Origin: a virus
DNA length: 41,265 nucleotides
Virus record (IMG/VR): IMGVR_UViG_3300025133_000252
Span: 1 to 41,265 of that record
Reading direction: 5' to 3' (one strand)
Part shown: positions 666 to 39,658 of the stretch, one piece after another
Numbering within the stretch: position 1 is the first letter of the stretch
Layout of the letters: each line of letters begins with the position of its first letter
Made by a program: the position numbers and the translations under genes
The notes under the pieces: generated by a model
What the model was told of the DNA's origin: nothing
Databases searched by the model: none
The model's input: the letters and a program-made list of their open reading frames with translations, nothing else

Positions 666-1190
666 CTACAGGGTTACTTCAGCGTGAATGACAGGCGCGA
701 TGCGCCCATCGGGAAGGGAAAGGCCATGCTCGAGGAAAGCGTTTACACGCCCCCCGTTGGCCTGCGGGTCGCCCGGCTCGAACGCCTGGGCCATGATCCA
801 CTCGTGTCCCTTGCAGGCAAGGAACTCGGGGATCGGGTAGTCATGGGAGTTGAGCAGCTGCCACCCTACATCGACCCACTTGACCTCCAGGCGGACAGGC
901 GCCCAAGGGGTGCCTCGCAGCCAATGGTCTTCGAGGCGACGCCAAGCTCCAGGGCGTACCGGCTTGTCGTTGAGCAAACTCAAAGGCCCCGGGTCGAGGC
1001 GCAAGGTGTAGCCTCGCCGCCTGTGTAGACAGGCCAGGAACGGCGCCTGTCTCGACAGCGCTCGTTGGGGCAGCGCGGTGACAGGAGCCTCGCCCCAGTT
1101 GGGCACGGGGCGAGCAGTGTTCGCCTTGCGCAGCGCCTTCGCTTGAAGCATGTTTACACGCTCCGTGAGTTGTCGTAGGTAGTGGCTCAT
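666..1190 (-). CDS. Hypothetical protein, 174 aa, coupled to the helicase gene
   Basis: Not recognised. The ATG overlaps the helicase stop codon (ATATGA), so the two are translationally coupled. The protein is basic at its N-terminus (residues 1-60, many Arg and Lys). It becomes tryptophan-rich in the middle (WRRLEDHWLRGTPWAPVRLEVKWVDVGWQLL), which looks like a compact globular domain. Its position between helicase and polymerase suggests a replication accessory protein, but no motif supports a specific role. The gene contains two copies of the GTTTACACGC motif (near 741 and 1152), both on the strand opposite to transcription. Confidence 0.7.
   Translation of the reverse strand: MSHYLRQLTERVNMLQAKALRKANTARPVPNWGEAPVTALPQRALSRQAPFLACLHRRRGYTLRLDPGPLSLLNDKPVRPGAWRRLEDHWLRGTPWAPVRLEVKWVDVGWQLLNSHDYPIPEFLACKGHEWIMAQAFEPGDPQANGGRVNAFLEHGLSLPDGRIAPVIHAEVTL
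739..751 (+). promoter_or_regulatory. GCGTTTACACGCC motif copy (13/13)
   Basis: Near-palindromic 13-mer inside the 666-1190 coding region, antisense to the gene, where it is read as CGT GTA AAC GC. A partial second copy with a perfect GTTTACACGC core lies at 1152-1161 in the same gene. Function unknown; see the finding on this motif. Confidence 0.4.
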
Positions 1191-2305
1191 ATCGGGAGTC
1201 GGGCTCGGAGGGTTCGGGGTACGTGGAGCCGACGCCTTGCCCGAGTCAACATGACATAGAGCAGGCGGACAGTTTGCGGCTCGCGTCGTTCAAACCGCTC
1301 GAGTGCCACCCGTGACCAAGGGAGCAGGTAGACGTCATCGGCCTCCGCTCCCTTGGCAGCGTGCCCCGTGGACAGGACTAGCTCCTCGTCGGCTCGGCCT
1401 ACCTTGGGCACGATGCCTGTGCCCCGCAGGCCCCAACCACGGAAGGCCTTGGCCACCGAATGCCGAGAGTAGCCGAGCACGAGGCCACGGCGGGGCGGGC
1501 TGTCGGGTCGCCACGTGAGCAGCTGGGTGCTGTGGTCGGCCCGGAACGTCGCCGCCGGCCGGTCGTAGTAGGACCGCAGCGCAGCCGCAGCCACCGACGC
1601 CACGTTGTCGCCGACACGCCAGCCCTTGTTGAGCACCTCGGTCTCGTCGGCGCGTTGCCAGACAGGCGGCAGCTGTGCCCCCTTCATCCCCTTGCTCTCG
1701 CCGAAGATAGCCTGTCCCGGGTCGCCGAAGGTCCAGACGTTGCCGTCTGCCTTCACCAGTGCAAGGGCCGCACGAAGCTCGGTCCAGCTCATGTCCTGGG
1801 CCTCGTCGATCATCAGGCAGTCGTACTTCTCGGCCTCGGGTACCGGGGCACCGTCCTCCAGCCAGCGAGCCAGCGGGAGCAGGTACTTGATCGGCCCCTT
1901 GGGCAGCTCGCTGTCGAGGTCGAAGGGCGGGTCACCATCGCGCCAGTCGTGCAGCGCCTTGGCCATGAAGTCGAGTTGGTCTCGAGCCCGACGGCTGGGT
2001 GCGTCCAGGAGGTACTGATCGAGGGCCGTGTCGAACAGGTGGTGGATCTTCCGGGCAGTGTACGCTCGGTTCGAGTAGGCCACCCCTGCCTTCGCCCCCT
2101 TCAGGTAGTCACGGACGTACGGCCACGTCAGCGAGTACACTGTCCCTGATGGCACGTCAGGTGCCCGTTGCTGTAGGACAGCCGCCGCATCATTGGTGTA
2201 AGTGACGACTGCCCCGTTCTCTGTGGTCCAGGCCGAAGCCTCTGCAACGATCCGCCGGGTCTTGCCTGTGCCCGGCGGTCCATCAATCGCTACTACCCTC
2301 GGCAT
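1187..2305 (-). CDS. UvrD/Rep-like superfamily 1 DNA helicase (compact, 372 aa)
   Basis: An ATP-dependent DNA helicase-like protein. Visible motifs in order: Walker A GPPGTGKT at residues 9-16; Walker B DEAQD at 167-171, typical of UvrD/PcrA-type enzymes; motif III GDPGQAIF at 194-201; a motif V-like STGHAAKGAE at 312-321; and motif VI YVMLTRAR at 350-357. At 372 residues it is about half the length of UvrD, so the 1B/2B accessory domains must be reduced or absent, as in other small phage helicases. Its start lies 23 bases inside the primase gene, and its stop overlaps the next gene by ATGA. With no DnaB-type helicase seen in the window, it is the only candidate for the fork helicase, though a recombination or repair role is equally possible. 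Confidence 0.88.
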   Translation of the reverse strand: MPRVVAIDGPPGTGKTRRIVAEASAWTTENGAVVTYTNDAAAVLQQRAPDVPSGTVYSLTWPYVRDYLKGAKAGVAYSNRAYTARKIHHLFDTALDQYLLDAPSRRARDQLDFMAKALHDWRDGDPPFDLDSELPKGPIKYLLPLARWLEDGAPVPEAEKYDCLMIDEAQDMSWTELRAALALVKADGNVWTFGDPGQAIFGESKGMKGAQLPPVWQRADETEVLNKGWRVGDNVASVAAAALRSYYDRPAATFRADHSTQLLTWRPDSPPRRGLVLGYSRHSVAKAFRGWGLRGTGIVPKVGRADEELVLSTGHAAKGAEADDVYLLPWSRVALERFERREPQTVRLLYVMLTRARRRLHVPRTLRARLPI

Positions 2306-3875
2306 CCTTGTCCTCCTTGGCCTTCAACCTAACGTAGGTCTCGTACTGTGCCCCGATGAACTCTTGTGCTTCGTCAGGGAGCAGGGCCAACGAGCACACC
2401 ATGACCTTCGCCTTGCTCTGCATGCCAACCAGGGTCTTGGTGCCGAGGAACTGACGGCACATCTTCTTGGTCTTGCTGATGTCGCCCAGCTGGGTCATCA
2501 GGATCTCTTGCAGGTAGGGCGACAGCACCAGCGAGGCCAAGCTCTCCTCTCCCTTGGGCCACACCACGAAGGGCACGGCCATGCCGCTCGGTCGCTTCGC
2601 AGTCCAGGCTTCGAGGAAGGTCAGGTCGGCCGCAGCTGTCCTCGCCCACTCCTCGATGATGGTCCAGAAGCGCTCCTCCAGCGGGATGCCTAGGATGTCG
2701 ACGCCCTTCTCTGCGTGCAGCATGAAGTCAAGCGCCCTTGCCCACCCAGGCTGGATGAACAAGGGGCTTCGGGCGACGGTGTCCAAGGGGGAGCCGGCCA
2801 GCGTGGCCAGGGCGGGCAGCAGGTTGCGCAAGTCGGCCAGAGCTGTCACCTTCTTGGCCTCGTTCCTGCGCTTCGCTGACCCGCCGAAGCCTACCAGTGT
2901 CTCCTTGAGCTTCCCTTGGCTGTCGAACACCTCGACCATCCAGGGCACGGCACCGAAGACGCCTTCGCACTCGGCCTTGACGTCAGTGACCGTAGGGTGT
3001 TTCTCCCTAGCTTGGTACTTCTCGCCGTTCTTGCTGCCGACTGACCAGCCGGAAGCGATAGCCGTGCGGAACTCCTTCTCGCTGAACTCGCCGAGCCGTG
3101 GCTTCAGGTGCTCCCACAGCCCAGGCATCAGCTCTTGATCTACCTGGGTGCCTGGATGCAGCCGGCCGAGCACTTGCCCCACCTTGGCCACGAAGTTGTT
3201 GCGTCCCCCTTCGGGGATCGCCTCGGCCAGATGCTCAAGCAGACCAATGAAGTGGATCGCCTCGGTTGGCTTGCCCTTCTTGGTCTGGCGTGTCTTGCCC
3301 TGGTCCTTCCTGGCTACCAGCCGAGCGATCAGGACGTCCGGCGGGAAGGCGAGGCTCGAGGGCGTGTAAACGTCCCCCATCACCGTCCGGTACTTGCCGG
3401 GCTTCTTCTGCTTGTTGGTGGCCAGGGAGTCGGGCAGCATGATGAGCCGCCGTGCCTTCGATGAGACCCGTACCTCGCCGGCCACCCCGTTGCCGAAGTC
3501 CACCGTTGCAGGCAGGCGCTCTGCCATCAGCTCGGGGGGCAGGCGGAACCATAGGTGGTAGCCACCCGACGGCGTTTCAACGAGGCCCATCGTGGGGGGC
3601 GGTGCCTCGCCAGAGGCCAGCCGAAGCCAAAGGTCGTCGAACGACATCCCGTAGGTGTCGAGGTCAAGGATCAGCAGGGGGACCGGGTCACTCGATTGCG
3701 GACACAGTACCGCCCCGGTCCCCTTGGACTGGAGAAGGTGGGCATGGGCCAGCTCGTGGTCCTCATCGTCGATGAAGACATCGAACTCCTTGCCCCCTAG
3801 CTTGACGGGGTACTTGCGGCGTCCGGTGGTCGGGAAGACCCAGTAACCCTGCTCACTAAGAGCAAGGTGTGTCAT
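2283..3875 (-). CDS. PrimPol-type primase/polymerase (bifunctional primase family)
   Basis: A primase of the archaeo-eukaryotic (PrimPol) superfamily, expected to make primers at the phage fork. The N-terminal catalytic domain shows the metal-binding DLD at residues 71-73, the SGGYHLWF motif at 103-110 with its histidine at 107, and the KARRLIMLP segment at 140-148. A region resembling the PriCT helical domain follows at about 205-285 (EGGRNNFVAKVGQVLGRL, then EFRTAIASGW). The rest (290-530) is unrecognised and has no Walker A, so this is not a primase-helicase fusion. The start overlaps the stop of the ribbon-helix-helix gene by one base, and the end overlaps the helicase gene. A GTTTACAC motif copy lies inside at 3361-3373. 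Confidence 0.82.
   Translation of the reverse strand: MTHLALSEQGYWVFPTTGRRKYPVKLGGKEFDVFIDDEDHELAHAHLLQSKGTGAVLCPQSSDPVPLLILDLDTYGMSFDDLWLRLASGEAPPPTMGLVETPSGGYHLWFRLPPELMAERLPATVDFGNGVAGEVRVSSKARRLIMLPDSLATNKQKKPGKYRTVMGDVYTPSSLAFPPDVLIARLVARKDQGKTRQTKKGKPTEAIHFIGLLEHLAEAIPEGGRNNFVAKVGQVLGRLHPGTQVDQELMPGLWEHLKPRLGEFSEKEFRTAIASGWSVGSKNGEKYQAREKHPTVTDVKAECEGVFGAVPWMVEVFDSQGKLKETLVGFGGSAKRRNEAKKVTALADLRNLLPALATLAGSPLDTVARSPLFIQPGWARALDFMLHAEKGVDILGIPLEERFWTIIEEWARTAAADLTFLEAWTAKRPSGMAVPFVVWPKGEESLASLVLSPYLQEILMTQLGDISKTKKMCRQFLGTKTLVGMQSKAKVMVCSLALLPDEAQEFIGAQYETYVRLKAKEDKDAEGSSD
3361..3373 (-). promoter_or_regulatory. GCGTTTACACGCC motif copy (12/13)
   Basis: On the minus strand this reads ACGTTTACACGCC within the primase gene (codons GTT TAC ACG CC). 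The frame differs from the copies in the polymerase gene and at 37411. Function unknown. Confidence 0.35.
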
Positions 3876-4099
3876 CAGGCGTCGTCTTCAGGCTTGCGGA
3901 GGTTGGTGGTGGGGGACAGGCGGACTTCCCGCTGCTCAAGCTCGTCACAGTAGCAGCGGGCGGCGGAGCGCATGAAGCCAGAGAGTGACCTACCCGTCTG
4001 GTGGGCCAGCAGCTTGATGCGGTGGTATTCCTCGGGGGTCACGTTGACTTGCATACGGTGGCCACGGAGGTACTCGAACTCGGTGTGTTGGTTGGACAT
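3875..4099 (-). CDS. Ribbon-helix-helix (Arc/CopG-like) DNA-binding protein, 74 aa
   Basis: A small regulator-like protein. From residue 13 the pattern is a beta strand, MQVNVTPEEYHRIKLLAHQ, then the turn GRSL and the helix SGFMRSAARCYCDEL, which is the ribbon-helix-helix layout. Such proteins bind palindromic operators as dimers. The start at 4099 (MSNQHTEFEYL) is chosen over the longer frame because the extension would run into the inverted repeat. The first codon lies 24 bases from the end of the 26-base outer repeat (4123-4346), so binding there and autoregulation is an attractive inference. It is the first gene of the primase-helicase group, and its stop overlaps the primase start. Confidence 0.72.
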   Translation of the reverse strand: MSNQHTEFEYLRGHRMQVNVTPEEYHRIKLLAHQTGRSLSGFMRSAARCYCDELEQREVRLSPTTNLRKPEDDA

Positions 4100-4122: not shown

Positions 4123-4346
4123 TAATAACGACCTTTCGAGCTATTGAATCGCCATAAATCCCCGCGCCGAAGGAACTTACGACCGAAACGGGCAAAAACA
4201 CGTTTGGCGCCCGTGCATTCTACACGGCAGGCCACCGCCGGTCCCGCGTCGGACGCGGCGGCGGAACGAAATCCGCCCGTTTCGGTCGTAAGTGCCGGAG
4301 CCACCGCCGCTTAGCGTCCGTTCAATAGCTCGAAAGGTCGTTATTA
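4123..4346. repeat. Nested intergenic inverted repeat locus (26-bp outer pair, 19-bp inner pair)
   Basis: The 263-base gap between the genes starting at 4099 and ending at 4363 is filled by symmetric DNA. The outer arms are 4123-4148 and 4321-4346: 26 bases, perfect, AT-richer than the surroundings, starting TAATAACGACC on the left. The inner arms are 4175-4193 and 4275-4293: 19 bases, perfect, containing ACTTACGACC on the left and GGTCGTAAGT on the right. The centre holds the near palindrome CCGCGTCgGACGCGG (4244-4258) and the small hairpin CCGTG/CACGG (4211-4227). Read outward, each strand carries the same cassette: the 19-mer, a 26- or 27-base spacer, then the 26-mer. This could be divergent promoter/operators, a replication origin, or a site for a recombinase or partition protein. 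The leftward copy faces the primase operon. Confidence 0.85.
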
Positions 4347-6092: not shown

Positions 6093-6572
6093 TCACTCAT
6101 CAACGAACGCCCCCGTCCTCTCGCGGAGGGACACCCAGCAGCCATGGCCGCAGACAACATGGTCAATGAGGGGGATGCCTAGCAGTCTACCGGCCTTGTG
6201 CATCCGGCGGGTCATCTCGATGTCTTCGGGCGAAGGCTCGGCATCGCCGCTCGGGTGGTTATGTGCCAACACGATCGCCGCACACCCATCGGTCGAGAGC
6301 GCCCGTTTGAACACCTCGCGGGGATGCACGACGGAAGACCCCACCGTGCCCAGGGAAACCACTGCCTCATCGAGGAGGCGATGCTTCGTGTCAAGGAGAA
6401 GCACCGTGACCTGCTCTTGCGCCAACCCACGGTGATGCGCCTCCATGTAGCGGTACACCTTCTCGGCGCTCGGGATCGGGAGCTTCGTCCTGCCTTGGCC
6501 GAGCTTCCGGCACACCTCGTAGGCGGCGGGCAGCGACTCGCGGCAGAGCTGCTCGAAGTCTCGGAGCTCCAT
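6093..6572 (-). CDS. RadC-family JAMM/MPN+ domain protein, 159 aa
   Basis: A RadC-like protein with a full JAMM metal site: Glu53 (AQEQVTVLLLD), then HNHPSGD with His104 and His106, followed by Ser114 and Asp117 (HxH-x7-S-x2-D). The start at 6572 (MELRDFEQLC) is preferred because AAGGTG precedes it at good spacing; the longer frame would overlap the zinc-ribbon gene and has no ribosome binding site. RadC proteins are widespread on mobile elements and linked loosely to DNA repair, but their biochemical role is not settled. The helix-hairpin-helix part of long RadC proteins is missing. The fragment therefore matches the short phage and plasmid forms. Confidence 0.85.
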   Translation of the reverse strand: MELRDFEQLCRESLPAAYEVCRKLGQGRTKLPIPSAEKVYRYMEAHHRGLAQEQVTVLLLDTKHRLLDEAVVSLGTVGSSVVHPREVFKRALSTDGCAAIVLAHNHPSGDAEPSPEDIEMTRRMHKAGRLLGIPLIDHVVCGHGCWVSLRERTGAFVDE

Positions 6573-6612
6573 GGGGTCACCTTGCCCTTGTCCTTCTCCA
6601 CGGTCGAGTCGA

Positions 6613-6744
6613 TCAGGCGTAGTCATTGTCATCGTTGGTGTTGTGCCCAAGTAGAGCAGTGAAGTCGAACCCACACACCGGACACTCGGCCGGCGGCTCG
6701 GGTTCGCACAGGTTTCCGTTGCCACACTGGCACAGCCAAGGCAT
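6613..6744 (-). CDS. Zinc-ribbon miniprotein, 43 aa
   Basis: A very short gene between RadC and the 6744-7070 gene, starting MPWLCQCGNGNLCEPEPP. It has a CxC near residue 5, a Cys at 13, and AECPVCGFDF around residue 20, a CPxCG knuckle like those in rubredoxin-type zinc ribbons. The tail is acidic (NTNDDNDYA). The ATG overlaps the TGA of the upstream gene (TGATG at 6746-6742), the same coupling used by its neighbours. This and the cysteine spacing make it credible despite its length. Role unknown; it could be a protein- or RNA-binding adapter. Confidence 0.68.
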   Translation of the reverse strand: MPWLCQCGNGNLCEPEPPAECPVCGFDFTALLGHNTNDDNDYA

Positions 6745-7851: not shown

Positions 7852-8112
7852 CTAGGCCTTGACCAGTTCGTCGAAGGCCGAGCGGCGCGGCACCACCTTG
7901 GACTTGAAGACGTTGCTCCAGCCGAGGAAGTAGTCGGGACGGGTGTCCATCAGCCGGCACAGCTTCTCGAGCAGGCGCGGGCTGGGGGCACTGCGCCCGG
8001 TCTCGAGGTTGGTGATGGTCGTGCCGGTGACGTCACAGGCAGCGCCGACAGCGGCTTGGGTCATGCCCAGCTTGGTGCGGCGTTCCTGCAGCCGCTCGGA
8101 GAAGACACTCAT
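7852..8112 (-). CDS. Cro/CI-type helix-turn-helix regulator, 86 aa
   Basis: An XRE-family DNA-binding protein. ERRTKLGMTQAAVGAACDVT (residues 10-29) forms helices 1 and 2, and GTTITNLETGRSAPSPRLLE (30-49) forms the recognition helix and the next turn. A short tail follows (YFLGWSNVFKSK). There is no peptidase or dimerisation domain as in lambda CI, so it is Cro-like in size. The start at 8112 is backed by TTAGGTACTCCC before the ATG, a leader shared with the gene at 10745. Likely a transcription regulator of this operon or the control region. No integrase was found, so lysogeny is not implied. Confidence 0.85.
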   Translation of the reverse strand: MSVFSERLQERRTKLGMTQAAVGAACDVTGTTITNLETGRSAPSPRLLEKLCRLMDTRPDYFLGWSNVFKSKVVPRRSAFDELVKA

Positions 8113-10892: not shown

Positions 10893-11261
10893 CTACTTGG
10901 TCACCGCCATGGCCTCGGCGAACGCGCCCCGGATCAGCTCCAGCTCGTGCTCGTCGCGGGTCACGCTCTTGCCCTTCGTGGCGAAGGCATCCAGGCTGTT
11001 GCCCACGTCGATCGCCTTGCGGATATCGTCCGCGCAGTCGAGGATGGTGAGCCACTGCGCCGGGTAGAGCGTGGTGGGGTAGCGGCCCATCCCGTAGATC
11101 GAGAGGCCACCCGACTTGGACGGCTTGAGGGTCAGGGTGGAACCCGACGACTCGAGCCGGGCCTTGAGCCGGGCGTTCTCGGCCAAGATCTCGGCGATCT
11201 GGGCTTGGGACAGGTCGGTCTGCGAAGCGGCCTCCGCCGCCTTGGTGTCGTTGTTACCCAT
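10893..11261 (-). CDS. Conserved phage protein, 122 aa, first gene of the leftward arm
   Basis: The start at 11261 (MGNNDTKAAEAASQTDLSQA) is chosen because AGGAG lies eight bases upstream. The frame's earlier ATG has none. A short coiled coil (QIAEILAENARLKARLESSG) is followed by KSGGLSIYGMGRYPTTLYPA and QWLTILDCADDIRKAI. This matches a motif I recall from many small phage proteins ('VSVYGLGRFPVTLY..QW..LL..A.DI'). Those proteins are uncharacterised. As the first leftward gene after the divergent control region it should be expressed early. A T-tailed hairpin terminates behind it. Confidence 0.8.
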   Translation of the reverse strand: MGNNDTKAAEAASQTDLSQAQIAEILAENARLKARLESSGSTLTLKPSKSGGLSIYGMGRYPTTLYPAQWLTILDCADDIRKAIDVGNSLDAFATKGKSVTRDEHELELIRGAFAEAMAVTK

Positions 11262-11460
11262 TTGGGAACTCCTAAGCATGGTAGCGTTGGCTTGCCCAGC
11301 TCACAATGAGCCGGGCGGATCCTGGCTTGCGCCGGGAAGGGTTGCCCGTTGGGAGCACCTACTAGGCAAGAGCAGCAGCCCTTGCGCTTCGATGCCCCAA
11401 CGACCCGACGACGACCCCCGGCCCGGCCCATCGGCCATGGCCCGGAAGCGGTCGAGTCGC

Positions 11461-11596
11461 ATCGGACGCCACCATGAGCCACCGGCCGTTCAAACGTGAC
11501 ATCGGACCGGCGAAATCGTCGTAAGTACCGCGCCCACAAGAACTTACGAACTCGCGGTCACGATCGCCGCGTCGGTGGCTCATGGAAGCGTCCGAT
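11461..11596. repeat. Nested inverted repeat with TCGTAAGT boxes in the control region
   Basis: The outer arms, 11461-11484 and 11573-11596, match in 22 of 24 positions as inverted repeats; the core CGGTGGCTCATG is perfect. Inside lie TCGTAAGT (11519-11526) and its complement ACTTACGA (11542-11549). The same TCGTAAGT box, also as an inverted pair inside long outer repeats, occurs at 4123-4346, and I noticed it nowhere else. Likely divergent promoter/operators or origin boxes. Confidence 0.82.
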
Positions 11597-11796
11597 CCGC
11601 CCCTCCCGGGGCCCATGAGCCGGGTTACCTCCCGGCCTTACCTTATGAGGGTGCCGGGAGGGACGGCGCGTTGGTGGGGCCATGGCGCCCGCCCCGGGCC
11701 GCCCCGCGCATCGAGGGTCCCGTCGGGGCCCGGCCACCGGGGCGATCTCGTTCCCCCGCCTAACCCCCTGCGCTTGCGCCGGTTAGGTCAATCCGA

Positions 11797-11894: not shown

Positions 11895-12716
11895 ATGACT
11901 CACAACGACTTCACCCGCGCTCTTGACTCCTCCCCGTTCGACGACCTCTACGGCCTTGCCCTGGCGGTCGCCAACCTCTACCGCACTGGCCGGGACTACG
12001 GCGGCTCGCCCCTTCCTCAATGGATGGATGCCGACGTGGCCACGGAAGCCGTGGACGTGGCTGTCCTTCGCCTCCTGGCCGATGTCGACGCCGACGACCT
12101 CGACCGGCTGGCCGACGAGCCAGAGGTCCGGCAGCGCCTCGTCGGCACCGGGAAGGCAATCCTGCGCACGTGGGCTATCAACCCAACCCTAGCCATGGGC
12201 GGCGGCTCGCGGGCCGTCACGACCGGCCACGAGGACGCCACGTTCCACGAGGGACTGACCGCCACCGACGCGCTCGCGGCGCTCCGGGAGGTCCAGGAGG
12301 AAGCCCGCGCGGTGCTGGCCGAGCTGCCCGAGCAGCACGCCTTCACGCTCGATGCCATGGCCGGTCGGATCCCCCGCCCCGCCGTGGCCGAGCCGACGTG
12401 GCGCAAGCGGTGCGAGCGAGCCCGCCAAGCCCTGGCCGAAGTCCTCAAGGTCCGGGCCGAGCTGCGCGACCCTGGCACTCTGCCGACGCGCGCGCCGTCG
12501 CCCGCGCTCCCCTGGCGGCAGGCTGCAGCCATGGTGGTCGGGGCGACCGGACGCGCGGCGCTCCCGGCGCTCCAGGTCGAGCCGCCCGTGGCTCCCGAGC
12601 CGACGCCGGAACGGTGGCCAGTGCTGACCGTCCCGCCGCTGGACGATGCCGCCCGGCTCCGGGTCGCGCAGTCGCGCCGGCTCCGGTCGAGCGGCGGCCC
12701 GGGGTTCGTCGCCTGA
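11895..12716 (+). CDS. First gene of the rightward arm, possible divergent sigma factor or small terminase, 273 aa
   Basis: Not firmly recognised. The ATG at 11895 (MTHNDFTRALDSSPFDDLYG) is used; the longer frame has no support. Residues 44-92 (DADVATEAVDVAVLRLLADV, then RLVGTGKAILRTWAIN) follow the spacing of sigma region 2. Residues 128-180 (REVQEEARAVLAELPEQHAF, then WRKRCERARQALAEVL) resemble sigma region 4 with its final RAR..L helix. The C-terminal 90 residues are Pro/Ala-rich and look disordered. A late-gene sigma factor would make sense in a phage with no RNA polymerase gene. The position before terL would also suit a small terminase. The gene is more GC-rich than its neighbours and is followed by a strong hairpin. 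Confidence 0.6.
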   Translation: MTHNDFTRALDSSPFDDLYGLALAVANLYRTGRDYGGSPLPQWMDADVATEAVDVAVLRLLADVDADDLDRLADEPEVRQRLVGTGKAILRTWAINPTLAMGGGSRAVTTGHEDATFHEGLTATDALAALREVQEEARAVLAELPEQHAFTLDAMAGRIPRPAVAEPTWRKRCERARQALAEVLKVRAELRDPGTLPTRAPSPALPWRQAAAMVVGATGRAALPALQVEPPVAPEPTPERWPVLTVPPLDDAARLRVAQSRRLRSSGGPGFVA

Positions 12717-12888: not shown

Positions 12889-13173
12889 ATGACCCCTGAC
12901 CGCACCCCCGCCGCCGCCGAGGACGCCCTCCCCGTGGCCAAGACCAAGTACGACACGAAGGAGAGCGCGAAGACGGTTGATGCCTTCCAACTAGGCACCG
13001 ACCCGGCCCCCCAGTGGTTCCTCGACCTCGGCGGTGCCCTCGTCATTGACAATGCCGCCTGGGTGGTCCAAATCGGCGGCCTCACCGCCGTCCCCGGCAG
13101 CTGGATCGTGAACCACCCCACCATCGGCCCGCGCATCTACACTGACGCCGAGTTCAAGGCACTCTTTCAGTGA
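12889..13173 (+). CDS. Small conserved phage protein, 94 aa, upstream of terminase
   Basis: The start at 12889 (MTPDRTPAAAEDALPVAKTK) is chosen because the longer frame covers the hairpin region. The C-terminal half (WVVQIGGLTAVPGSWIVNHP, then GPRIYTDAEFKALFQ) recalls a common phage mini-protein with '..PGDWIV.G..GE.Y....F...F'. These proteins are uncharacterised. The stop overlaps the GTG start of the terminase gene (GTGA), so the two are translationally coupled. It could be a terminase helper, but there is no evidence for that beyond position. Confidence 0.7.
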   Translation: MTPDRTPAAAEDALPVAKTKYDTKESAKTVDAFQLGTDPAPQWFLDLGGALVIDNAAWVVQIGGLTAVPGSWIVNHPTIGPRIYTDAEFKALFQ

Positions 13174-14819
13174 CCCCGCGCCTGACCCACACCCACACGC
13201 CGGCCGCGATCCGAGAAGCCACCCTGCGCATCTTCAACGACCCGATCGCGCTAGCAGAAGCCCTCGGCTACAACGGAACACCGACGATCGCACCTGACCC
13301 CAAGTCAGGGGAGCCAACGGTACTCCAGCGCAAGGTCTTCGGGGCGTTCCACCGCCGGATGCTCGACCACGCCCACTCGGGCCCACGCACAAGCACTGTC
13401 GTACCTAGGGGGCATGCCAAGAGCACAGTGCTCACGGTCTGCGACACGATCCACCACCTCTTGCGCCACCCCCACTCGCGCAACCTCATTGCGTGCGCCA
13501 CCCTCGACCTCGCCCGTAAGCTAGTAGGTGAGATCAGAGATAGGCTGAACGGCGACCTCGAGCTGCTCCCTGGCCTCTTCCTGCCCGTCCGCGACGCCTT
13601 CCCGTGGCTCGCGGTGCGCGGCGACCTCCGCAAGCAGGGCCCGGCCGACCAGTTCAATATCGTCGGCCGCGAGGGCAAGGGCCGCGAGCCGTCGGTCTTC
13701 GCTGCCTCGGTCGAATCCAACCTCGCCGGCAACCACCCGACCAGGGCGGTGGTCGACGACCCGTCCAACGAGCAGAACAGCCGGACCTACGCCCGCCGCC
13801 GCAAGGTCATCGAGTTCATTGAGACACTTGAGCCGCTGATGTTCGCGCCCGACTCGCCGATCTACCACATCGGGACGCCGTGGGCCTTCCAGGACGTCAC
13901 CGCGTACCTCGAGCGCCGCGAGGACTGGACGCAGTTCCGGTTCGGCGTCTGGGACGGATACAATCCCGAGACATTGAAACAGGACGGTAAAGGGCCCGGC
14001 CCCGACGGCGCATGGCCGGTCTGCCCGTCGTTCCTCACGGCCGAGGAGATCGTCGACAAGCAGAAGAACCTCGCCAAGACCTTCTTCGCCGCCCAGTACC
14101 TCTGCCAGCCGGTCCCGTCGGACGAGGCCCTCTTCGACCCTGCGCTCGTCGCCGCCGCAACGGACGAAGACCTGACCCTCGACGCCCTTCCCCCGGCGCC
14201 CAAGGTGCTGCTCTACGACCCGGTCGCCCGCATGGACGACAACACGCGCGGCGACCTCAACGGCATCATCGTGGCCAAGGTCATCCCGGCCCACGCGCTC
14301 GGCCTCGTTGGCTTCGAGCCGGACAGGAACATCTTTGTCCCGGTCGAGGCACTTGAGCTGGCCGGCGGCGCCGACAGCGCCGTCAGCTGGCTCGAAGAGG
14401 TCGGCGTCCCCAACCACAAGGAGGAGCTGCAGGCGCTCTGGGTCGAGGATGTCGCCGCCCAATCGCTGTTCAAGCCGTGGCTCGAGGAGCGCGGCAAGCT
14501 CGACGGCGTCGCCATCCGGGGCCAGAAGATCGGCAACGCGGCCCTTGCCTTTCGGCTCATGGGGTTGCAGACCGCGATGCGGAAGGGGTACCTTAGGTTG
14601 CCGCCCGAGTTCCCCGGCCGCGACCTCTTGGTCCAGCGCCTCATTGAGTATCCGCTCTCGGATTCGGACGATCTGATCTCTGCCCTCGCGCTGTTGAGCA
14701 CCCAAGCCGACCGGCGCGGCACGCCTCCGGGGCTCACGCCGCTCGACGAGCGGAACACCCCAACGACCCTCTGGACACCCCAGATGAACGGAGCATCCAA
14801 CGATGGCTGGCCAAGCTAG
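13170..14819 (+). CDS. Terminase large subunit (T7-like group), 549 aa
   Basis: The DNA-packaging motor. The ATPase domain shows Walker A as PRGHAKST (residues 79-86), Walker B as AVVDD (193-197) and the coupling region IGTPW (about 234-238). The nuclease half includes LLYDPVARMDDNTRGDLNG (about 348-366) and further acidic residues in WVEDVAAQ. These suit the RNase H-like terminase nuclease. The PRGHAKS form of Walker A is typical of terminases from T7-type podoviruses, which often leave direct terminal repeats; that packaging type is inferred only. It starts at a GTG overlapping the previous stop, and its last 17 bases overlap the portal gene. Confidence 0.92.
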   Translation: MTPRLTHTHTPAAIREATLRIFNDPIALAEALGYNGTPTIAPDPKSGEPTVLQRKVFGAFHRRMLDHAHSGPRTSTVVPRGHAKSTVLTVCDTIHHLLRHPHSRNLIACATLDLARKLVGEIRDRLNGDLELLPGLFLPVRDAFPWLAVRGDLRKQGPADQFNIVGREGKGREPSVFAASVESNLAGNHPTRAVVDDPSNEQNSRTYARRRKVIEFIETLEPLMFAPDSPIYHIGTPWAFQDVTAYLERREDWTQFRFGVWDGYNPETLKQDGKGPGPDGAWPVCPSFLTAEEIVDKQKNLAKTFFAAQYLCQPVPSDEALFDPALVAAATDEDLTLDALPPAPKVLLYDPVARMDDNTRGDLNGIIVAKVIPAHALGLVGFEPDRNIFVPVEALELAGGADSAVSWLEEVGVPNHKEELQALWVEDVAAQSLFKPWLEERGKLDGVAIRGQKIGNAALAFRLMGLQTAMRKGYLRLPPEFPGRDLLVQRLIEYPLSDSDDLISALALLSTQADRRGTPPGLTPLDERNTPTTLWTPQMNGASNDGWPS

Positions 14820-16809
14820 GCTCAACGAAGACGCCCAGGCGCACCTCAAGTCCCTCTTCGAGACGGCCCGCGAGGCCCTGTCCGCGCCACTCAAGGAGAA
14901 TCAGAAGCTCATCTCGGACATCTACACCGGGCGTGACCCGGCGTCGTTGGCCCAGATATTCATCGGAGAGCAGGGCATCCCGGTCGCCGATCTCGTCGAG
15001 GCCGAGAAGACCGCGTCGTGGCGACCGCCGCAGACCACCGCGAACCTCTTCTTGTCGCGGGTCCGGCAGCTGGTGAGCAACCTCACCCCGGGTGTCCCGT
15101 CCTTCCGGTCGAAGGCCCGCGTCTCCGGCGCCGCCCGCCTCTCCGACGACCAGAACAAGATCATGCGGATCCTCACGGACCGTGGTGATCTCCGCGCCGC
15201 CGCTCGCCGCGCCGCCTTCCTCGGGCTGCTCTCGCCCTACTTCGGGGTCAAGATATGCCTGGACGGAAAGCCAAAGGCCGGCGAGGAGCATCCCCTGGAC
15301 CAAGTCCAGTTCAAGGCGCTGGAGCCGGGCGTCTGCGGCTACGAGCCCTTCCTCCGTCGCTTCGTGTGGCACGCCTACACGATGCAGTACGGCGACCTCC
15401 CCGCCACCTGGATCCCGGCCGAGTGGAAGGAAGCCACGGGCGAGGAGCCCAAGCCCTACGACCTCGTCCGCGTCACCGAGCTGTACCACGAGGGCATCAA
15501 CACGGGCTCGACGGAGTCCGGTTGCCCCATGTCGGTGTTCGTTGAGCGCAACGCGCCCGAAGAGCCGGACGCGGTCCAGCTCGATCCGAGCGGCACCCTG
15601 CCCCAGCAGGACCACCTCGGCGTCTACGCGACGACCGAGATGCTGCCCGCCTGCCCCATCATCCTGAACAACTTCCTCGACGCGGCTCCCGACGAGGACA
15701 TCCCGGCGGCGGAAGTGCTCTCGTGGATCCCGTTGATGAGGATGATCGTCCAGACCCTCGTGCAGATCGAGCGCGAGATCCGGACGTCGAACAACACCAT
15801 CCTCTACGACAAGACCGCCATCAAGAAGGAGGTCATCGACTTCCTCCAGGGCGCGGTGCCCGGCGCTCGTGTCTTCGTCCCGGTCGATGCCGACGACAAC
15901 AGTCGTGGTGTGAACGCCACCATGCGGCCGGTCGAGCAGAACAGCGAGCTGGACAAGTACCTCGCCGCACTCTCGGCCTACCTCCGTCTCTTCGACGACG
16001 TGACCGGCGTGTCGCCCAGCGATCGGGGCCAGCCGGCCGGCGGTCGCCGTTCCGCGCACGAGGCCGCTGCCATCACCGAGGCCGCTGCCCGGCGGACCCA
16101 GGACCGGCTCGAGGTCATGGCCGGCATGTGGACCAAGATCGCCCAGGTGCTCTTCGCCTACCAGCGCAATATCTTCGGTGCGACGGTCGAGGTCCCGCTG
16201 CAGAACGGCATGGTCGAGACCCTCGCGGTGCCCAACCCGAAGACCGCCAAGTTCGCCTTCGATGTGGACCCCGTTGAGCTGGGCCACCTGTCCAATAGCG
16301 GCGACCTGAACGCCCAGATGCAGTGGCTCACCGTGCTCACTCGGTCGCAGCAGGCCTTCGCCACGGGGATGCCCCGCATGATCCGCGAGGCCTTGCGCAG
16401 GCTGGGCATGACGATGGGCATCGAGGATGTCGAGCTGTACCTGGGTGCTCCGACCATCGAGGTCGGCCCCGAGGAGCGTTTCATCGAGCACCTCCAGACC
16501 CAGAAGCCGATCGTGGTGCTCGCTGATGACCAGCACGACATGTTCATGGCCTACTACACCCGGATGCAACAGGCCACCATCACCCGCCAAGGCGATGAGC
16601 AGCAGATCCTTGAGCTGCAACAGGCCATCGACCTGCACCGTTCCTACGCGGCCCAGAGCGCCAGCGTCATCAACCCCGGTCAGCTCGGCGATATCGTCCC
16701 GGGCGTCGGTGCCGGCGCAGGGGAGGTCGACAACAACCTCGCTGCTGCCTTCGCCACGGGCGGCGCCCCGTCGGCCGTGCCGCAGCAGGACATCGGCGCC
16801 GGCTTCTAG
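14803..16809 (+). CDS. Portal (head-tail connector) protein, 668 aa
   Basis: It forms the dodecameric ring at the capsid vertex through which DNA passes. Support comes from position directly after terL, a length typical of podovirus portals, and the segment at about residues 395-440 (DRGQPAGGRRSAHEAAAITE, followed by a long helix with RRTQDRLEVMAGMW). This matches the 'G..TA.E...I......R' stem region seen in T7-like portals. The C-terminus becomes Gly/Ala-rich (about 625-668) and is likely disordered. It overlaps terL by 17 bases. No truncation is apparent. Confidence 0.88.
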   Translation: MAGQARLNEDAQAHLKSLFETAREALSAPLKENQKLISDIYTGRDPASLAQIFIGEQGIPVADLVEAEKTASWRPPQTTANLFLSRVRQLVSNLTPGVPSFRSKARVSGAARLSDDQNKIMRILTDRGDLRAAARRAAFLGLLSPYFGVKICLDGKPKAGEEHPLDQVQFKALEPGVCGYEPFLRRFVWHAYTMQYGDLPATWIPAEWKEATGEEPKPYDLVRVTELYHEGINTGSTESGCPMSVFVERNAPEEPDAVQLDPSGTLPQQDHLGVYATTEMLPACPIILNNFLDAAPDEDIPAAEVLSWIPLMRMIVQTLVQIEREIRTSNNTILYDKTAIKKEVIDFLQGAVPGARVFVPVDADDNSRGVNATMRPVEQNSELDKYLAALSAYLRLFDDVTGVSPSDRGQPAGGRRSAHEAAAITEAAARRTQDRLEVMAGMWTKIAQVLFAYQRNIFGATVEVPLQNGMVETLAVPNPKTAKFAFDVDPVELGHLSNSGDLNAQMQWLTVLTRSQQAFATGMPRMIREALRRLGMTMGIEDVELYLGAPTIEVGPEERFIEHLQTQKPIVVLADDQHDMFMAYYTRMQQATITRQGDEQQILELQQAIDLHRSYAAQSASVINPGQLGDIVPGVGAGAGEVDNNLAAAFATGGAPSAVPQQDIGAGF

Positions 16810-16822
16810 TCAGGTACCCCGC

Positions 16823-17212
16823 ATGATCTACCCCTTCAAGTGTCGCCAGTGCGCCCACCCCTTCGATGTGAGTCGCTCGATGAGCGTCGATGGACCCGAG
16901 CCCTGTCCTCTGTGCAAGCGGCCCTGCGAGCAGGACTACTCCCGCAAGACGGTGAACAGTCACGTCTCCACCGAGGGCGACTGGACCGGCGGCAAGGCGA
17001 TCCTGCAGCTGCCCAAGGACCACCCTGACTACATGGTCACCAACCGGAACGACATGGCCGACGCCTACAAGCGCAATGGTCTCTGCATGGATACGGGCAA
17101 GTTCGTGTCCAAGGAGGCCCAGGTCAAGGCCACCATCCCGCGTGGGACGGCCCAAGAAGCCGCCCTGTCCAACCCTGATCTCGCCGTCGGCGGAGTCAGG
17201 GAAGAGTCTTGA
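16823..17212 (+). CDS. FmdB-type zinc-ribbon protein in the head operon, 129 aa
   Basis: The N-terminus MIYPFKCRQCAHPFDVSRSM, followed by EPCPLCKRPCEQDYSR, has the CxxC...CPxC arrangement of FmdB-like zinc ribbons. The remainder (about 55-129) is unrecognised and holds a basic segment VKATIPRG. Start 16823 is supported by CAGGTACC upstream and by falling after the portal stop. Proteins of this type occur beside portal and scaffold genes in other phages, and their role is not known. It could assist capsid assembly or be a virion component. Confidence 0.72.
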   Translation: MIYPFKCRQCAHPFDVSRSMSVDGPEPCPLCKRPCEQDYSRKTVNSHVSTEGDWTGGKAILQLPKDHPDYMVTNRNDMADAYKRNGLCMDTGKFVSKEAQVKATIPRGTAQEAALSNPDLAVGGVREES

Positions 17213-17240
17213 TTTTCCCACCCGTATCCCCTACCGTGAA

Positions 17241-17256
17241 CCCTGGAACTCCAGGG
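17241..17256 (+). terminator. Short intercistronic hairpin before the scaffold gene
   Basis: CCCTGG and CCAGGG pair around AACT in the 69-base gap between the zinc-ribbon and scaffold genes. There is no T-tract, so it is more likely an mRNA processing or stability element that adjusts head-protein levels than a full terminator. Confidence 0.35.
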
Positions 17257-17281
17257 GTCGCCCGAGCCAATCGAGGTAACC

Positions 17282-17992
17282 GTGGCTGAAGAGAAACCCA
17301 ACGAGTCCGACGTCAACGAGCAGAAGCCTGCGGGTAGCTCGTCCAATGAGGAGGCGTCCGACCAGACGTTGAACCTCGCCGACGAAGCCAGCAATGCGGC
17401 GGCAAACAAGCCGCGCTCGAAGGACACCAGTTCTTTGGACGACCTGAACCTCGACGACGACGCCCGCAAGGCGATCGAGTCGTACGTCAGCAAGTCCGTC
17501 AACGACGCAGTCGCTAAGCACGACCGCCGCACCAAGCGCAAGGCCGAAGAGGCGGGGCACATGACCCGCAACGAGGTCGAGACGCTGCTGGCCGAGAAGG
17601 ATGCGGAATCCACCCGCCGAATCGAGGCTCGAGAGCGGTTCCTGTCGGTGCTCGGAGAGGACGGGATCACCCCGGGCTCCGACTCCTACAAGAAGGTCGA
17701 GCAGGCGTACCGCGATGGGATCGACGACGGGGCCTTCACCCCGCAGATCCTCCTCACCGAGGCGGGTGTTCGCACCCTGGTCGCTGTCGCTGGTGTCTCG
17801 TCGAAGACGGCCGAGCGAGGAGAGCGAGGCGCCGGGCCCCAGAGTGGGCTCGCCGGCAACCTCCCCGAGGGTTCGCGCATCACGCAGGGCGGCGACGTCC
17901 AGCTGAACGCCGACAACCCTGACGACCCCAACAAGGGGATGCGACAGCGAATGAACGAGGCGATGGCCGACGCACTCCGCAAGCAATCCTGA
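17282..17992 (+). CDS. Scaffolding-like protein, 236 aa, GTG start
   Basis: Assigned by position directly before the major capsid gene and by composition. The N-terminal 70 residues are acidic, Asn/Ser-rich and disordered. A charged helical middle (DDDARKAIESYVSKSVNDAV, then MTRNEVETLLAEKDAESTRR) follows, and the C-terminal helix (MRQRMNEAMADALRKQS) is basic. Podovirus scaffolds have this layout, with the C-terminal basic helix contacting the coat protein. The GTG at 17282 has GAGGTAAC at proper spacing. No sequence family was recognised. Confidence 0.75.
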   Translation: MAEEKPNESDVNEQKPAGSSSNEEASDQTLNLADEASNAAANKPRSKDTSSLDDLNLDDDARKAIESYVSKSVNDAVAKHDRRTKRKAEEAGHMTRNEVETLLAEKDAESTRRIEARERFLSVLGEDGITPGSDSYKKVEQAYRDGIDDGAFTPQILLTEAGVRTLVAVAGVSSKTAERGERGAGPQSGLAGNLPEGSRITQGGDVQLNADNPDDPNKGMRQRMNEAMADALRKQS

Positions 17993-18006
17993 CCCCAGCC
18001 TGACTC

Positions 18007-19152
18007 ATGGCAACTCCCGCATACAACCAGACTCTCGACACCCTCGTCTCGACCGCGCTCGAGACGTACACCCGCAACCCGGCCAACGCCCTCACCAACT
18101 GTGGTGAGAAGTTCCTGCAGACCGCCGCCCGCATGGGCCGGCTGTTCGTGGTGAACGACGCCGAGACGCTCCGTCACCCGCTGCTCATCGGCCACGGTGA
18201 GAACTCCTCGCTCTACACCCCGGACACTCTGTCCGGCACGCCCGACGGCGAGAACAACCTGTCGGCGAGCGCGAAGGAGATCCTGACCATGGCGATGTTC
18301 CACCTCGTCGCCGGCACGCGGAACATCAACTTCCCGCAGAGCCAGCCGCCCGGCAACCTCATCGACTACGTCTCCAGCGTCGTCGATGCGAACATGATGA
18401 AGGTCTTCAACGAGGAAGAGATCCTGTTCGTGCAGGGCGACGCGCCGGGTTCGTCCGGCACGCTCGCGCTCAACGCGCCGATGACGACCGACACCGACTA
18501 CAACGCCGGCTACCCGATGTCGTTGATGTCGCTGCTGTACTCCAGCTCGACGCCCGCCGCCGTGGCGGACGGCGACACCACCAACGAGTCCTTCGCCAAC
18601 GTGAAGGTCGACGACGTGCCGAAGTGGCAACCGAAGCACACCGCTGCGACGGATACCGACCACTCGACGATGATCTCTGACCTCCAGAACATCATCAACG
18701 ACTCGAGCTACAGCGGCGTCGAGCGCCCGACCCACGTGTACATGGTCCAGGAATCCTTCGAGAAGTTCCTGGCCCTGCACCGCACGCTCGGCGCCCTGCC
18801 GGACCCGGTCCAGGCCAACCTCGGCAAGGAAGGCTCGATGCCCTTCGGCGGGGTCACCGTCGACTGGTCGCGCTACCTGACCCGCAACGTGCTCTGGGAT
18901 ATCACCGATCCGGAAGGCGGCACCGCCTCCTACCCGATCGTCGGTGTCAACTGGAACTCGCTCCGCCTGAACACCGTCCGCGCTGGCTCGCCCAGCCAGG
19001 ACAACCTCGGCTTCATCCGCCAGATCGGTGCCATCCAGACGCACCCGCTGCTGACGAACCTGTTCAAGCGCATCGAGTGGAAGCGCCAGTGGTCGGTTGA
19101 CGCCGGTCGCCGCTCCTTCTTCTCGCTCTACGGCAACACCACCATCGCCTAG
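18007..19152 (+). CDS. Major capsid protein, 381 aa
   Basis: The main shell protein, placed after the scaffold and before the connector as in T7-like phages. The fold is presumably HK97-like. Segments such as YIVGVNW-type strands (ASYPIVGVNWNSLRLNTVRA near residues 313-332) and MVQESFEKFLALHRTLGALP (near 247-266) suit that class, but no family signature can be proven by eye. Its size is normal for podovirus coats. The ATG at 18007 follows the scaffold stop by 14 bases and has only a weak ribosome binding site, which is odd for what should be the most abundant protein. Confidence 0.85.
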   Translation: MATPAYNQTLDTLVSTALETYTRNPANALTNCGEKFLQTAARMGRLFVVNDAETLRHPLLIGHGENSSLYTPDTLSGTPDGENNLSASAKEILTMAMFHLVAGTRNINFPQSQPPGNLIDYVSSVVDANMMKVFNEEEILFVQGDAPGSSGTLALNAPMTTDTDYNAGYPMSLMSLLYSSSTPAAVADGDTTNESFANVKVDDVPKWQPKHTAATDTDHSTMISDLQNIINDSSYSGVERPTHVYMVQESFEKFLALHRTLGALPDPVQANLGKEGSMPFGGVTVDWSRYLTRNVLWDITDPEGGTASYPIVGVNWNSLRLNTVRAGSPSQDNLGFIRQIGAIQTHPLLTNLFKRIEWKRQWSVDAGRRSFFSLYGNTTIA

Positions 19153-19160
19153 AGCACCTG

Positions 19161-20000
19161 ATGGCCACCCTGGCTGAACTGCGGACCCGCCTCAAGTCCC
19201 GTCTGGGGCTTGGGGTGGTCTCCGCTGTCGAGCAGGCACGCCTCAACGAGGCTGTCAACTCCGGCATCTCGCGGGCTCTCTCCGATGGGGCTCCTGGTTT
19301 GGCTACGGAGGTTTTCACTGGGGCCACCTATGGCTCCTTGGCCCTCACCTCGGCGGACCTGACCGCCGGCTCGAGTCTGGTTGCCGTCGTTGACGACACC
19401 ATGCTCGCTGACCACGTCTTCCCCGGCGACATCTTGGTCTTCACCGTCGGCGGTGTCACGACGAAGTACCTGATCCGGGAAGTCCCGTCAGAGGTCAGCC
19501 TTGATCTGGGCGTCGAGGTCCCGACCACCGCCTCGGCGGACTCGGCCTCGATCATCCGGCGCTCCTTGGTGCTGCCCTCCTCGGGTCAGGTGATCCGCGT
19601 CGGCCGCATCAGCGGCTCCTCGGTGCGCTGGCTGGAGCACGCGGGCTCGGCCGTCAAGGCCAACCCCTTCGGCACGGGCAAGGGCGCCGCCTTCGAGCAA
19701 CGCTTCTCGGAGGGGCACACCAAGAGCCACGCGCTGGTCTGGCCCGCACCTGACGACACCACCGAGCTGTACCTCGTTGAGCAGTCCGAGTACAAGGTCC
19801 AGATGGACGAGGACACCGACACCCTCTCCTTCCCGGAGGAGGCGGTCGATGGGATCCTCGAGCGATCGAGGCAGGCGTACCTGACCTGGATCGGTAGCGC
19901 CGATGGTGTCCAGCTGGGCGCTGCGGCCCAGGCCTCCCGTGATGTCGCCGATTCGATCCACAACAGCGGCAACGCACACCAGCTCCACCAGAGGTACTAG
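19161..20000 (+). CDS. Head-tail connector / tail-tube adaptor-like protein, 279 aa
   Basis: It lies between capsid and tail genes where T7-like phages carry the adaptor (gp11-like) protein. The first 45 residues (MATLAELRTRLKSRLGLGVV, then RLNEAVNSGISRALSDGAPG) are helical, as in adaptor rings. A beta-rich middle follows, and a long C-terminal helix begins EEAVDGILERSRQAYLTWIG. This helix-beta-helix layout supports an adaptor. The function is inferred from layout and gene order, not from a clear motif. It begins 8 bases after the capsid stop. Confidence 0.65.
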   Translation: MATLAELRTRLKSRLGLGVVSAVEQARLNEAVNSGISRALSDGAPGLATEVFTGATYGSLALTSADLTAGSSLVAVVDDTMLADHVFPGDILVFTVGGVTTKYLIREVPSEVSLDLGVEVPTTASADSASIIRRSLVLPSSGQVIRVGRISGSSVRWLEHAGSAVKANPFGTGKGAAFEQRFSEGHTKSHALVWPAPDDTTELYLVEQSEYKVQMDEDTDTLSFPEEAVDGILERSRQAYLTWIGSADGVQLGAAAQASRDVADSIHNSGNAHQLHQRY

Positions 20001-20002
20001 CC

Positions 20003-20764
20003 ATGGCCGGCGACTATTCAGGTCCCTGTTGCTGTGGGTCAGTGACCCGCATGAAGGGCGGAATCCACCCCGACACGATCAAGTCGGCCACGGTGGACCT
20101 GCACATCGAGGACTACACGACCAAGACGTTCATCAACGCCATCCTGGTCAACAAGCCCATCCACATCATCAGTGCGACGGCAGCGTACGTGGCCATCAGC
20201 CACGACACCACGGCGGGCAACGAGCACAAGCAGGTCAAGACGCGGAGCCCCTCGACTACTGCCATTGAGTGGGCGATGACCCCAGCGTCCTTCTCGCTGT
20301 TCACGCTCCCCGCCTTCGTCACCGACGACTTGGACATGGGCGGCTGGGATCCCGAGCAGGGTGGCGACTACATCGACGGGCGCGACTACATCGTGTCAGG
20401 CGCAGTGAACCCCTACACACCTCACTGGCGTATGCCCGAGGATCTGTGGGGCTACTTCTGTGACGGCGCGTTGTTCGTCGAGATGAACGCGGCGTACCAG
20501 TTCACCTGCCTGCGGGTCACTGTCAACTACGTTGACCGAGCGCAGTTCTCGCCTGCCTACCCTGACCCTGTGGGGGTCATGCAGCACTACTGGAAGTGCG
20601 CTCACGGCGACAAGGTCGAGTTCCTGGAGGGTTTCTACGGCGGCTCATCGTTCGACGTGGACTCCAGTGCGGTCGTCTCGGTAGGCTCCTCGCTGCCGGG
20701 CTCGAGTCGCCAGACCAACCCGGGCTCCTGGATCACCACGGCGCACTCCGCCCACACTTGGTAG
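20003..20764 (+). CDS. Probable structural protein, 253 aa, between connector and nozzle
   Basis: Not recognised. It starts MAGDYSGPCCCGSVTRMKGG with three adjacent cysteines, unusual for a virion protein. It is otherwise beta-rich and aromatic (LWGYFCDGALFVEMNAAYQF, VMQHYWKCAHGDKVEFLEGF), ending in a Ser-rich tail. GAGGTACTAGCC before the ATG is a good ribosome binding site. The gene sits two bases after its neighbour's stop and is followed by the nozzle gene. This places it among head-tail joining or tail components, though no enzyme motif excludes another role. The cysteine cluster may bind metal. Confidence 0.7.
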   Translation: MAGDYSGPCCCGSVTRMKGGIHPDTIKSATVDLHIEDYTTKTFINAILVNKPIHIISATAAYVAISHDTTAGNEHKQVKTRSPSTTAIEWAMTPASFSLFTLPAFVTDDLDMGGWDPEQGGDYIDGRDYIVSGAVNPYTPHWRMPEDLWGYFCDGALFVEMNAAYQFTCLRVTVNYVDRAQFSPAYPDPVGVMQHYWKCAHGDKVEFLEGFYGGSSFDVDSSAVVSVGSSLPGSSRQTNPGSWITTAHSAHTW

Positions 20765-20766
20765 CC

Positions 20767-39445: not shown

Positions 39446-39658
39446 TTAGTCGTCGGCTCTTGGGCCGCTCTCCGCTTGCTTGAGAATGTCTAGGAGGGAA
39501 AAACCGCTGTCGCCGGCAAGGGGTTTAGCCCTCAACAGCTTCTCTACGGCACCAGCCAGGGCCTCCCTTTCCCTGGGTGTTCTTTCGTCCATCTCCGTCA
39601 GGAGCTTGCGCACCTGTCTGTCGATGATGGTCTGGATCGTTTGATCGTCGTCGTTCAT
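39446..39658 (-). CDS. Small helical hypothetical protein, 70 aa
   Basis: The start at 39658 (MNDDDQTIQTIIDRQVRKLL) is chosen because its ATG overlaps the polymerase TGA as ATGA; the four-codon longer version lacks this. It is acidic at first and then helical (TPREREALAGAVEKLLRAKP), ending in a helix plus an acidic tail (FSLLDILKQAESGPRADD). It is coupled with the polymerase and the ssDNA-binding-like gene, so a replication accessory role is likely. Nothing more specific can be said. Confidence 0.7.
   Translation of the reverse strand: MNDDDQTIQTIIDRQVRKLLTEMDERTPREREALAGAVEKLLRAKPLAGDSGFSLLDILKQAESGPRADD

Follow-up and report, generated by a model that had tools for sequence, protein, structure and literature searches.

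Gene context of the two loci

The window, i.e. the whole stretch of DNA analyzed here, is a 41,265-bp IMG/VR virus record of an uncultured phage. Its leftward arm carries genes for a polymerase (39655–41256), a PrimPol, a helicase, a RadC-like protein and an RHH protein, and its rightward arm begins near the gene for the terminase large subunit (TerL) and encodes very large proteins. We investigated two loci in this arrangement (Table 1): locus A lies before the leftward RHH, PrimPol and helicase genes, and locus B, 7 kb away, separates the leftward replication arm from the rightward terminase/structural arm. The probable first leftward gene next to locus B showed no match in protein families or in the relatives. 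The RadC-like protein of the leftward arm (6093–6725) is a JAB-domain protein, with PF04002 far over the cut-off.

Contig G021 represents the same phage (pieces 99.85–99.99% identical) and spans the ends of the window; about 453 bases missing from the window link its two ends in the second contig (L201 8766–9218). In the relative G028 the contig ends overlap over 1.3 kb at 98.9% identity. Because G021 crosses the window ends and the ends of G028 overlap, the phage genome is, judged from these contigs, probably permuted or circular. When TerL was compared to cultured phages, all matches showed less than 60% identity (104 records, 0 covering 80%), and the PrimPol of the window had no match in cultured phages.

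Table 1. Positions of genes and sequence elements at loci A and B in the window
Feature	Position	Strand	Remarks
Helicase gene	1187..2305	-	phrog_1967 and AAA_30
PrimPol gene	2283..3875	-	Next in operon; PF09250 over cut-off
RHH (NikA-like) protein gene	3875..4099	-	First gene after locus A; PF21983 over cut-off, RHH_1 below cut-off
Outer arm, locus A	4123..4148	+	26 nt, pairs perfectly with 4321-4346; relatives keep its TTCGA-N2-TATT part
Locus A site 2, RHH-proximal, 31-bp frame	4152..4182	.	TCGTAAGT box at 4175-4182(-)
Putative -10-like hexamer (TAGAAT), lying between sites 1 and 2 of locus A	4217..4222	-	By eye and alignment
Locus A site 1, promoter-upstream side, 31-bp frame	4286..4316	.	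TCGTAAGT box at 4286-4293(+)
Outer arm, locus A	4321..4346	-	Partner of 4123-4148
Probable first leftward gene left of locus B	10893..11279	-	Predicted from third-position GC only
Whole imperfect palindrome, locus B	about 11449..11608	.	52-nt arms, 73% complementary, plus inner site
Left 24-nt arm of 22/24 inverted repeat, locus B	11461..11484	+	Arm-to-arm comparison
Central 31-bp dyad site, locus B	11519..11549	.	TCGTAAGT-N15-ACTTACGA
Right 24-nt arm of 22/24 inverted repeat, locus B	11573..11596	-	Arm-to-arm comparison
Terminase large subunit gene, rightward arm	13170..14819	+	phrog_38; 1.6 kb right of locus B

A 31-bp dyad common to both loci

An earlier note on this DNA had described a 22/24 inverted repeat at 11461–11596, and we found this repeat to be exact. 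No other centre in the window shows an inverted repeat this good (22/24 or better, gap up to 110), and 3 base shuffles contained none. The identical inner boxes that had been reported for the two loci were confirmed as well: TCGTAAGT occurs in four copies (4175-, 4286+, 11519+ and 11542-), two at locus A and two at locus B, and the window-wide search revealed no scattered copies elsewhere. The expected count is 0.33 and 0 of 100 shuffles reached four copies. Short shared words are also present at both loci as claimed, GAGCCACCG at 4298, 11476 and 11573(-) and CCGTTCAA at 4318 and 11486. The claim that both loci follow the same plan had to be given up: in locus A the boxes point outward (ACTTACGA, 103 nt, TCGTAAGT) and belong to two frames, 134 nt apart from start to start within perfect 26-nt outer arms, whereas in locus B they point inward (TCGTAAGT, 15 nt, ACTTACGA) and form one complete site.

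The unit common to A and B is a 31-bp dyad of roughly NCGYAA-N19-TTRCGN. When the left A site was aligned to the B site, the match took in the centre and a 5-nt flank, about 36 columns in all, and reached a score of 30, which 2 of 300 shuffles equalled; the best alignment of the two on the other strand, covering the GAGCCACCG word, was not significant (23 of 300 shuffles). Because the orientation of the boxes differs but the left A site and the B site align, the real link between the loci is the 31-bp frame and not the layout. We observed the strict form NCGYAA-N19-TTRCGN 8 times in 137,935 bases of the genus, always at A or B, compared to 0.5 expected from shuffles that preserve base composition only. 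It occurs once in the window, at the central B site, three times in L178 and twice each in L197 and L200; L196, L198 and L199 have none. The two A frames of the window and, on one side, the B frame of L186 deviate from it. A looser motif score of 11 or more was found at three places in the window versus 3.5 in shuffles, i.e. without excess, and the three A/B frames hold the top three scores of the window.

Conservation of both loci in relatives

Using the PrimPol as a query we found 10 relatives besides this phage (59–62% identity). For locus A we analyzed 8 relatives with 5 distinct sequences, leaving out L182 and L187, whose contigs begin near or inside the PrimPol gene. All 8 of these relatives, like the window, carry exactly two YAA-N19-TTR frames before the RHH and PrimPol genes, located at constant places in a stretch of about 275 nt (6 distinct sequences including the window). 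In the alignment, many of the invariant columns lie within these frames or within the outer arms (TTCGA-N2-TATT / AATA-N2-TCGAA). The start-to-start distance of the two sites is 122–124 nt in the relatives versus 134 nt in the window, a difference of about one helical turn. Between the two sites a -10-like hexamer was recognized by eye in 6 of 6 sequences, followed by the RHH start codon; inspection by eye of locus A revealed no good -35 partner for TAGAAT. We read locus A as the putative promoter of the operon with a putative operator on each side. The outer arms contain a second conserved inverted element, TTCGA-N2-TATT, which may be a site for another protein.

For locus B three distinct relatives were available. 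In all three a long palindrome (about 155–170 bp) is present at the equivalent place and holds a YAA-N19-TTR frame at its centre, and it lies about 0.8 kb from TerL, compared to 1.6 kb in the window. Where both regions are present in a relative, both loci are kept, although the boxes vary (CGCAAG, CGTAAC and others). Neither this result nor the absence of scattered TCGTAAGT copies in the window refutes the earlier note. The arm-to-arm score was 64 for the window and 86, 98 and 78 for the relatives, while shuffles gave means of 32–42 and maxima of 47–58. Aligned to each other, the palindromes of the window and the relatives scored 0.3, 1.3 and 2.8 SD above shuffles, and those of the relatives among themselves 4 to 5 SD above shuffles. 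From the high arm scores and the low alignment across phages we infer that the symmetry has been kept and most letters have been turned over: the arms have diverged among the relatives, yet they are still complementary.

Similar sites in other viral contigs, plasmids and chromosomes

Next to the genus itself we scanned viral contigs for TCGTAAGT-N(5-35)-ACTTACGA and obtained at least 119 stretches, a sample with near-duplicate contigs (among the matches listed, e.g. L024/L079/L114 and L039/L081). Among the matches listed, the spacer is exactly 15 nt in 47 of 126 cases, including 3 copies from this phage itself and some from near-duplicate contigs, and any other spacer was found 0 to 6 times; 15 nt is also the spacer of locus B. 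These sites extend to about TCGTAAGTCNTTG-N5-CAANGACTTACGA and frequently form twin units with a spacing nearly constant per contig. A looser form of the motif matched in 20 of 20 such array records, and its reversed control in one record only. In the 15 whole records (G006, G015, G018, G019 and G020 were left out) we counted 147 twin units with 293 distinct sites, all in viral contigs unrelated to the window. A crude -35/-10 pattern peaks about 140–160 nt past the start of the array unit, with a smaller peak just before the unit, and mechanically called ORFs of at least 80 aa contain 28 of the 147 units. In L062 (G001 13181–23537), G002, G004, G014 and others the twin-site arrays are located between small genes of a phage group that shares the TerL block named below, with up to 20 units (G001). 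Because of this location integron-like attC cassettes were considered and rejected, as none of the 20 array records, which include fragments, contains the tyrosine recombinase domain PF00589. Phage intergenic repeats carrying promoters are reported for halovirus HF2 (PMC8707807). The arrays resemble them in having many motif copies between phage genes and differ in consisting of twin 31-bp dyads with a linker nearly constant per contig.

Compared to the array consensus, the B site fits at 19 of 24 positions and the A frames at 16 and 14 of 24, and three places of the window outside A and B score 14 or 15 of 24 as well. Like the array sites, the B site combines the TCGTAAGT/ACTTACGA ends of the 31-bp frame with a 15-nt spacer. 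The array layout, with many units of two sites 42–53 nt apart, is absent in the window, which has only three sites (spacing 134 at A, single at B). Likewise, the inner TTG-N5-CAA of the arrays is not kept in the genus of the window, where 3 of 32 half-sites have YTG at position 11, a frequency not above that of the adjacent positions. Descent of whole phages was rejected as a simple explanation of the shared site, since a block of TerL, an ERCC4-type nuclease and a weakly sigma-like protein common to 13 of the 15 array contigs is absent from the window. The likeness between the sites of the genus and those of the arrays and plasmids could also be convergent, so that only the A/B pair within the genus would be meaningful. 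We consider this unlikely. It would fit the use of the window's own octamer as bait in finding the array family, the lack of conservation of the inner half of the consensus in the genus and the fact that the window and the array contigs have no ORF in common at E 1e-4 (40 largest clusters); it accounts poorly for a search with a free spacer of 5–35 nt returning so many spacers of exactly 15 nt, and for the 19 of 24 positions at which the B site agrees with the array consensus.

A strict form of the motif was also found in 14 stretches of the genome_contigs collection, 6 of them within one Verrucomicrobiae chromosome. This chromosome, OX638380.1, carries at least 6 copies (L130, L136, L138, L139, L141 and L142) on both strands with long shared flanks, which looks like a repeated element. 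In the plasmids BPP5P1 and R7K a similar palindrome lies beside a CGCACC...GGTGCG hairpin near mobilization genes, and these regions are likely oriT. The same palindrome, beside a hairpin with GAAAGGTGCG or its complement, was seen at L143 3000–3031, L144 2500–2530 and L135 1413–1443, i.e. in the BPP5P1 and R7K plasmids and a Falsochrobactrum contig. In Treponema and Chitinispirillia contigs (L140 5131–5161; L131 162–192) the motif adjoins a sequence that is tRNA-like by eye. The 31-nt consensus had no match covering 80% in cultured phages, and in open-licence PMC text we recognized no paper describing the 31-bp motif.

DNA palindrome versus RNA hairpin

Palindromes of this length could also act as structured RNAs, i.e. 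as terminators, processing hairpins or riboregulators. The predicted RNA folds are indeed strong: both loci beat 200 of 200 shuffles, with z -8.0 for A and z -5.4 for B. The DNA fold of locus B is likewise better than 200 of 200 shuffles (z -5.0). However, wobble-type mismatches in locus B amount to 12 on one strand versus 14 on the other, and because these numbers are nearly equal neither strand is favoured as RNA. In the array sites, Watson–Crick pairing at pairs 7–10 (0.48, 0.66, 0.45 and 0.38) shows no compensation when compared to shuffled pairs (0.49, 0.68, 0.49 and 0.35), so the left and right half-sites vary independently there, as expected of a protein dimer, and G-T mismatches (305) are about as frequent as A-C mismatches (291). 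At pair 11/21 we counted 19 G-T versus 38 A-C, and pairs 3/29, 6/26 and 12/20 are correlated (z 4.1, 5.8 and 3.5), both in sites that were picked by consensus score. A search of the loci against Rfam gave no match at gathering scores. On these wobble and covariation counts and the Rfam result we rejected the RNA hairpin, which we regard as very improbable; the comparisons show that selection acts on the symmetry of the DNA and not on an RNA hairpin.

Candidate binding proteins

A common DNA-binding factor acting on both loci had been proposed in the earlier note, together with four phage proteins that might bind. The proposal is supported in outline, with the octamer confined to A and B in the window and the 31-bp frame present at both loci in the relatives. 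With tblastn at E 1e-4, neither the HTH protein 7852–8112 nor the protein 11895–12716 gave a hit in the 15 relative loci, and the former was rejected as binder for this reason. The protein 36807–37229 is conserved at 48–50% in two relatives.

The RHH protein is encoded directly after the locus A site, and in the window PF21983 scores over the cut-off. Like those two proteins, it gave no tblastn hit in these 15 loci at E 1e-4. When we searched with PF01402 at E 0.1 or better, the domain was detected in the window and 4 of the 5 relatives searched, one over the cut-off, and was not detected in the fifth (L179). An RHH gene stands at the equivalent place in relatives. What speaks against the RHH protein as the binder is that its sequence has changed beyond the reach of tblastn although the sites persist, and that, by eye, its DNA-facing strand differs. 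Across all records PF21983 was found in 1 of 25 and PF01402, with the same limit of E 0.1, in 6 of 25; one of these six is a weak match among the 19 array records. We rejected the RHH protein as a universal binder on these counts; this evidence of absence is weak, because the same search also missed the relative L179.

An alternative is that the factor is a DNA-bending protein of the host of the IHF/HU type, whose own phage-encoded version was rejected, since none of 22 phage records encodes an HU/IHF domain. The occurrence of the site in unrelated phages would be explained by a host factor. The IHF box has the consensus WATCARNNNNTTR. The array site TAA-N4-TTG-N5-CAA-N4-TTA resembles two IHF boxes with a common centre; the exact IHF consensus is present on one strand in 110 of 253 array sites, a set that was itself picked by a related score, and the commonest change at positions 21 and 28, the two R positions, is A to G. 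The CAR-N4-TTR element occurs in many array sites. The palindrome in the likely oriT of R7K fits here as well: IHF binds the oriT of R388 (PMC3264647), a plasmid related to R7K. The sites described here differ from IHF sites in being symmetric and more specific. Against IHF, all four 'any base' positions of its box show a strong bias in the arrays. Classical IHF is not known to require such a bias. In addition, neither the inner TTG/CAA nor the CAR part is kept in the genus of the window, and the window sites do not match WATCARNNNNTTR on either strand, with only the TTR end kept and, at B, also CAA. We judge it rather unlikely that the factor is an IHF/HU-type protein of the host. With regard to the binder in general, the phage RHH protein is a tentative candidate, another phage protein is an equally tentative one, and a host factor such as IHF/HU is only slightly less likely.

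Proposed control of the two arms

We propose that this uncultured phage genus has two control loci, A and B, which share a 31-bp dyad-symmetric candidate protein-binding site as their building unit. In locus A two such sites flank the promoter-like hexamer of the leftward RHH, PrimPol and helicase genes, so that a bound factor would probably repress or loop the promoter. In locus B one site is centred in a long DNA palindrome between the leftward and the rightward arm, where the factor would probably set the balance between the arms. Binding itself, a single common factor, repression or looping and the switch role, be it a promoter or an origin switch as the earlier note suggested, are here inferred from sequence. 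We estimate a probability of roughly 0.55 that A and B are binding sites of one factor controlling both loci, with the switch as the putative role.

One or both loci could instead act in replication or packaging and not in transcription, with A as an origin before the PrimPol operon and B as an origin, a packaging site or a concatemer-junction palindrome near the terminase gene. The plasmid pRN1 has an orf56–orf904 operon and an origin with a 100-bp stem-loop 3' of orf904 (PMC3869888). The layout at locus A is similar: a PrimPol-type replication gene comes after a small RHH gene, and a palindromic region is close by. The short distance of B to TerL (about 0.8 kb in relatives, 1.6 kb in the window) and the suitability of long palindromes with free sequence for a cruciform or hairpin intermediate also speak for this reading. 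However, the origin of pRN1 lies 3' of orf904 and not before orf56, and the central frame of B is common to A, which no packaging reading requires. The present case further differs from pRN1 in being a phage, in its second locus 7 kb off and in its palindromic region, which precedes the RHH gene and encloses two 31-bp frames within outer arms. We therefore regard control of the two arms as the best reading, and origin and packaging functions as possible but quite unlikely to be the actual role.

Regulation by a small RHH protein at the head of a replication operon is known from CopG-RepB of pMV158. In operators of the NikR type two short half-sites lie roughly two helical turns from each other and the middle is free; their half-site sequence differs from that of the window. 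By analogy, the half-site spacing and the free middle of the window sites are reminiscent of these operators.

In locus B nature provides a clean example of selection that acts on DNA symmetry and leaves the sequence nearly free, and the strict motif offers a fast way of locating both candidate control loci in this genus. Beyond the genus, the sites may belong to one undescribed cis-regulatory code, a 31-bp dyad near CGYAAGTC...GACTTRCG that would be read by one widespread DNA-binding protein in unrelated phage groups and conjugative plasmids and would mark, in the genus of the window, precisely the two main regions of control, with a giant palindrome around one of the sites; on the present sequences we hold this to be less likely than not. 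If one factor does read the site in unrelated phages and plasmids, its identification would open a shared way into the gene control of many uncultured viruses.
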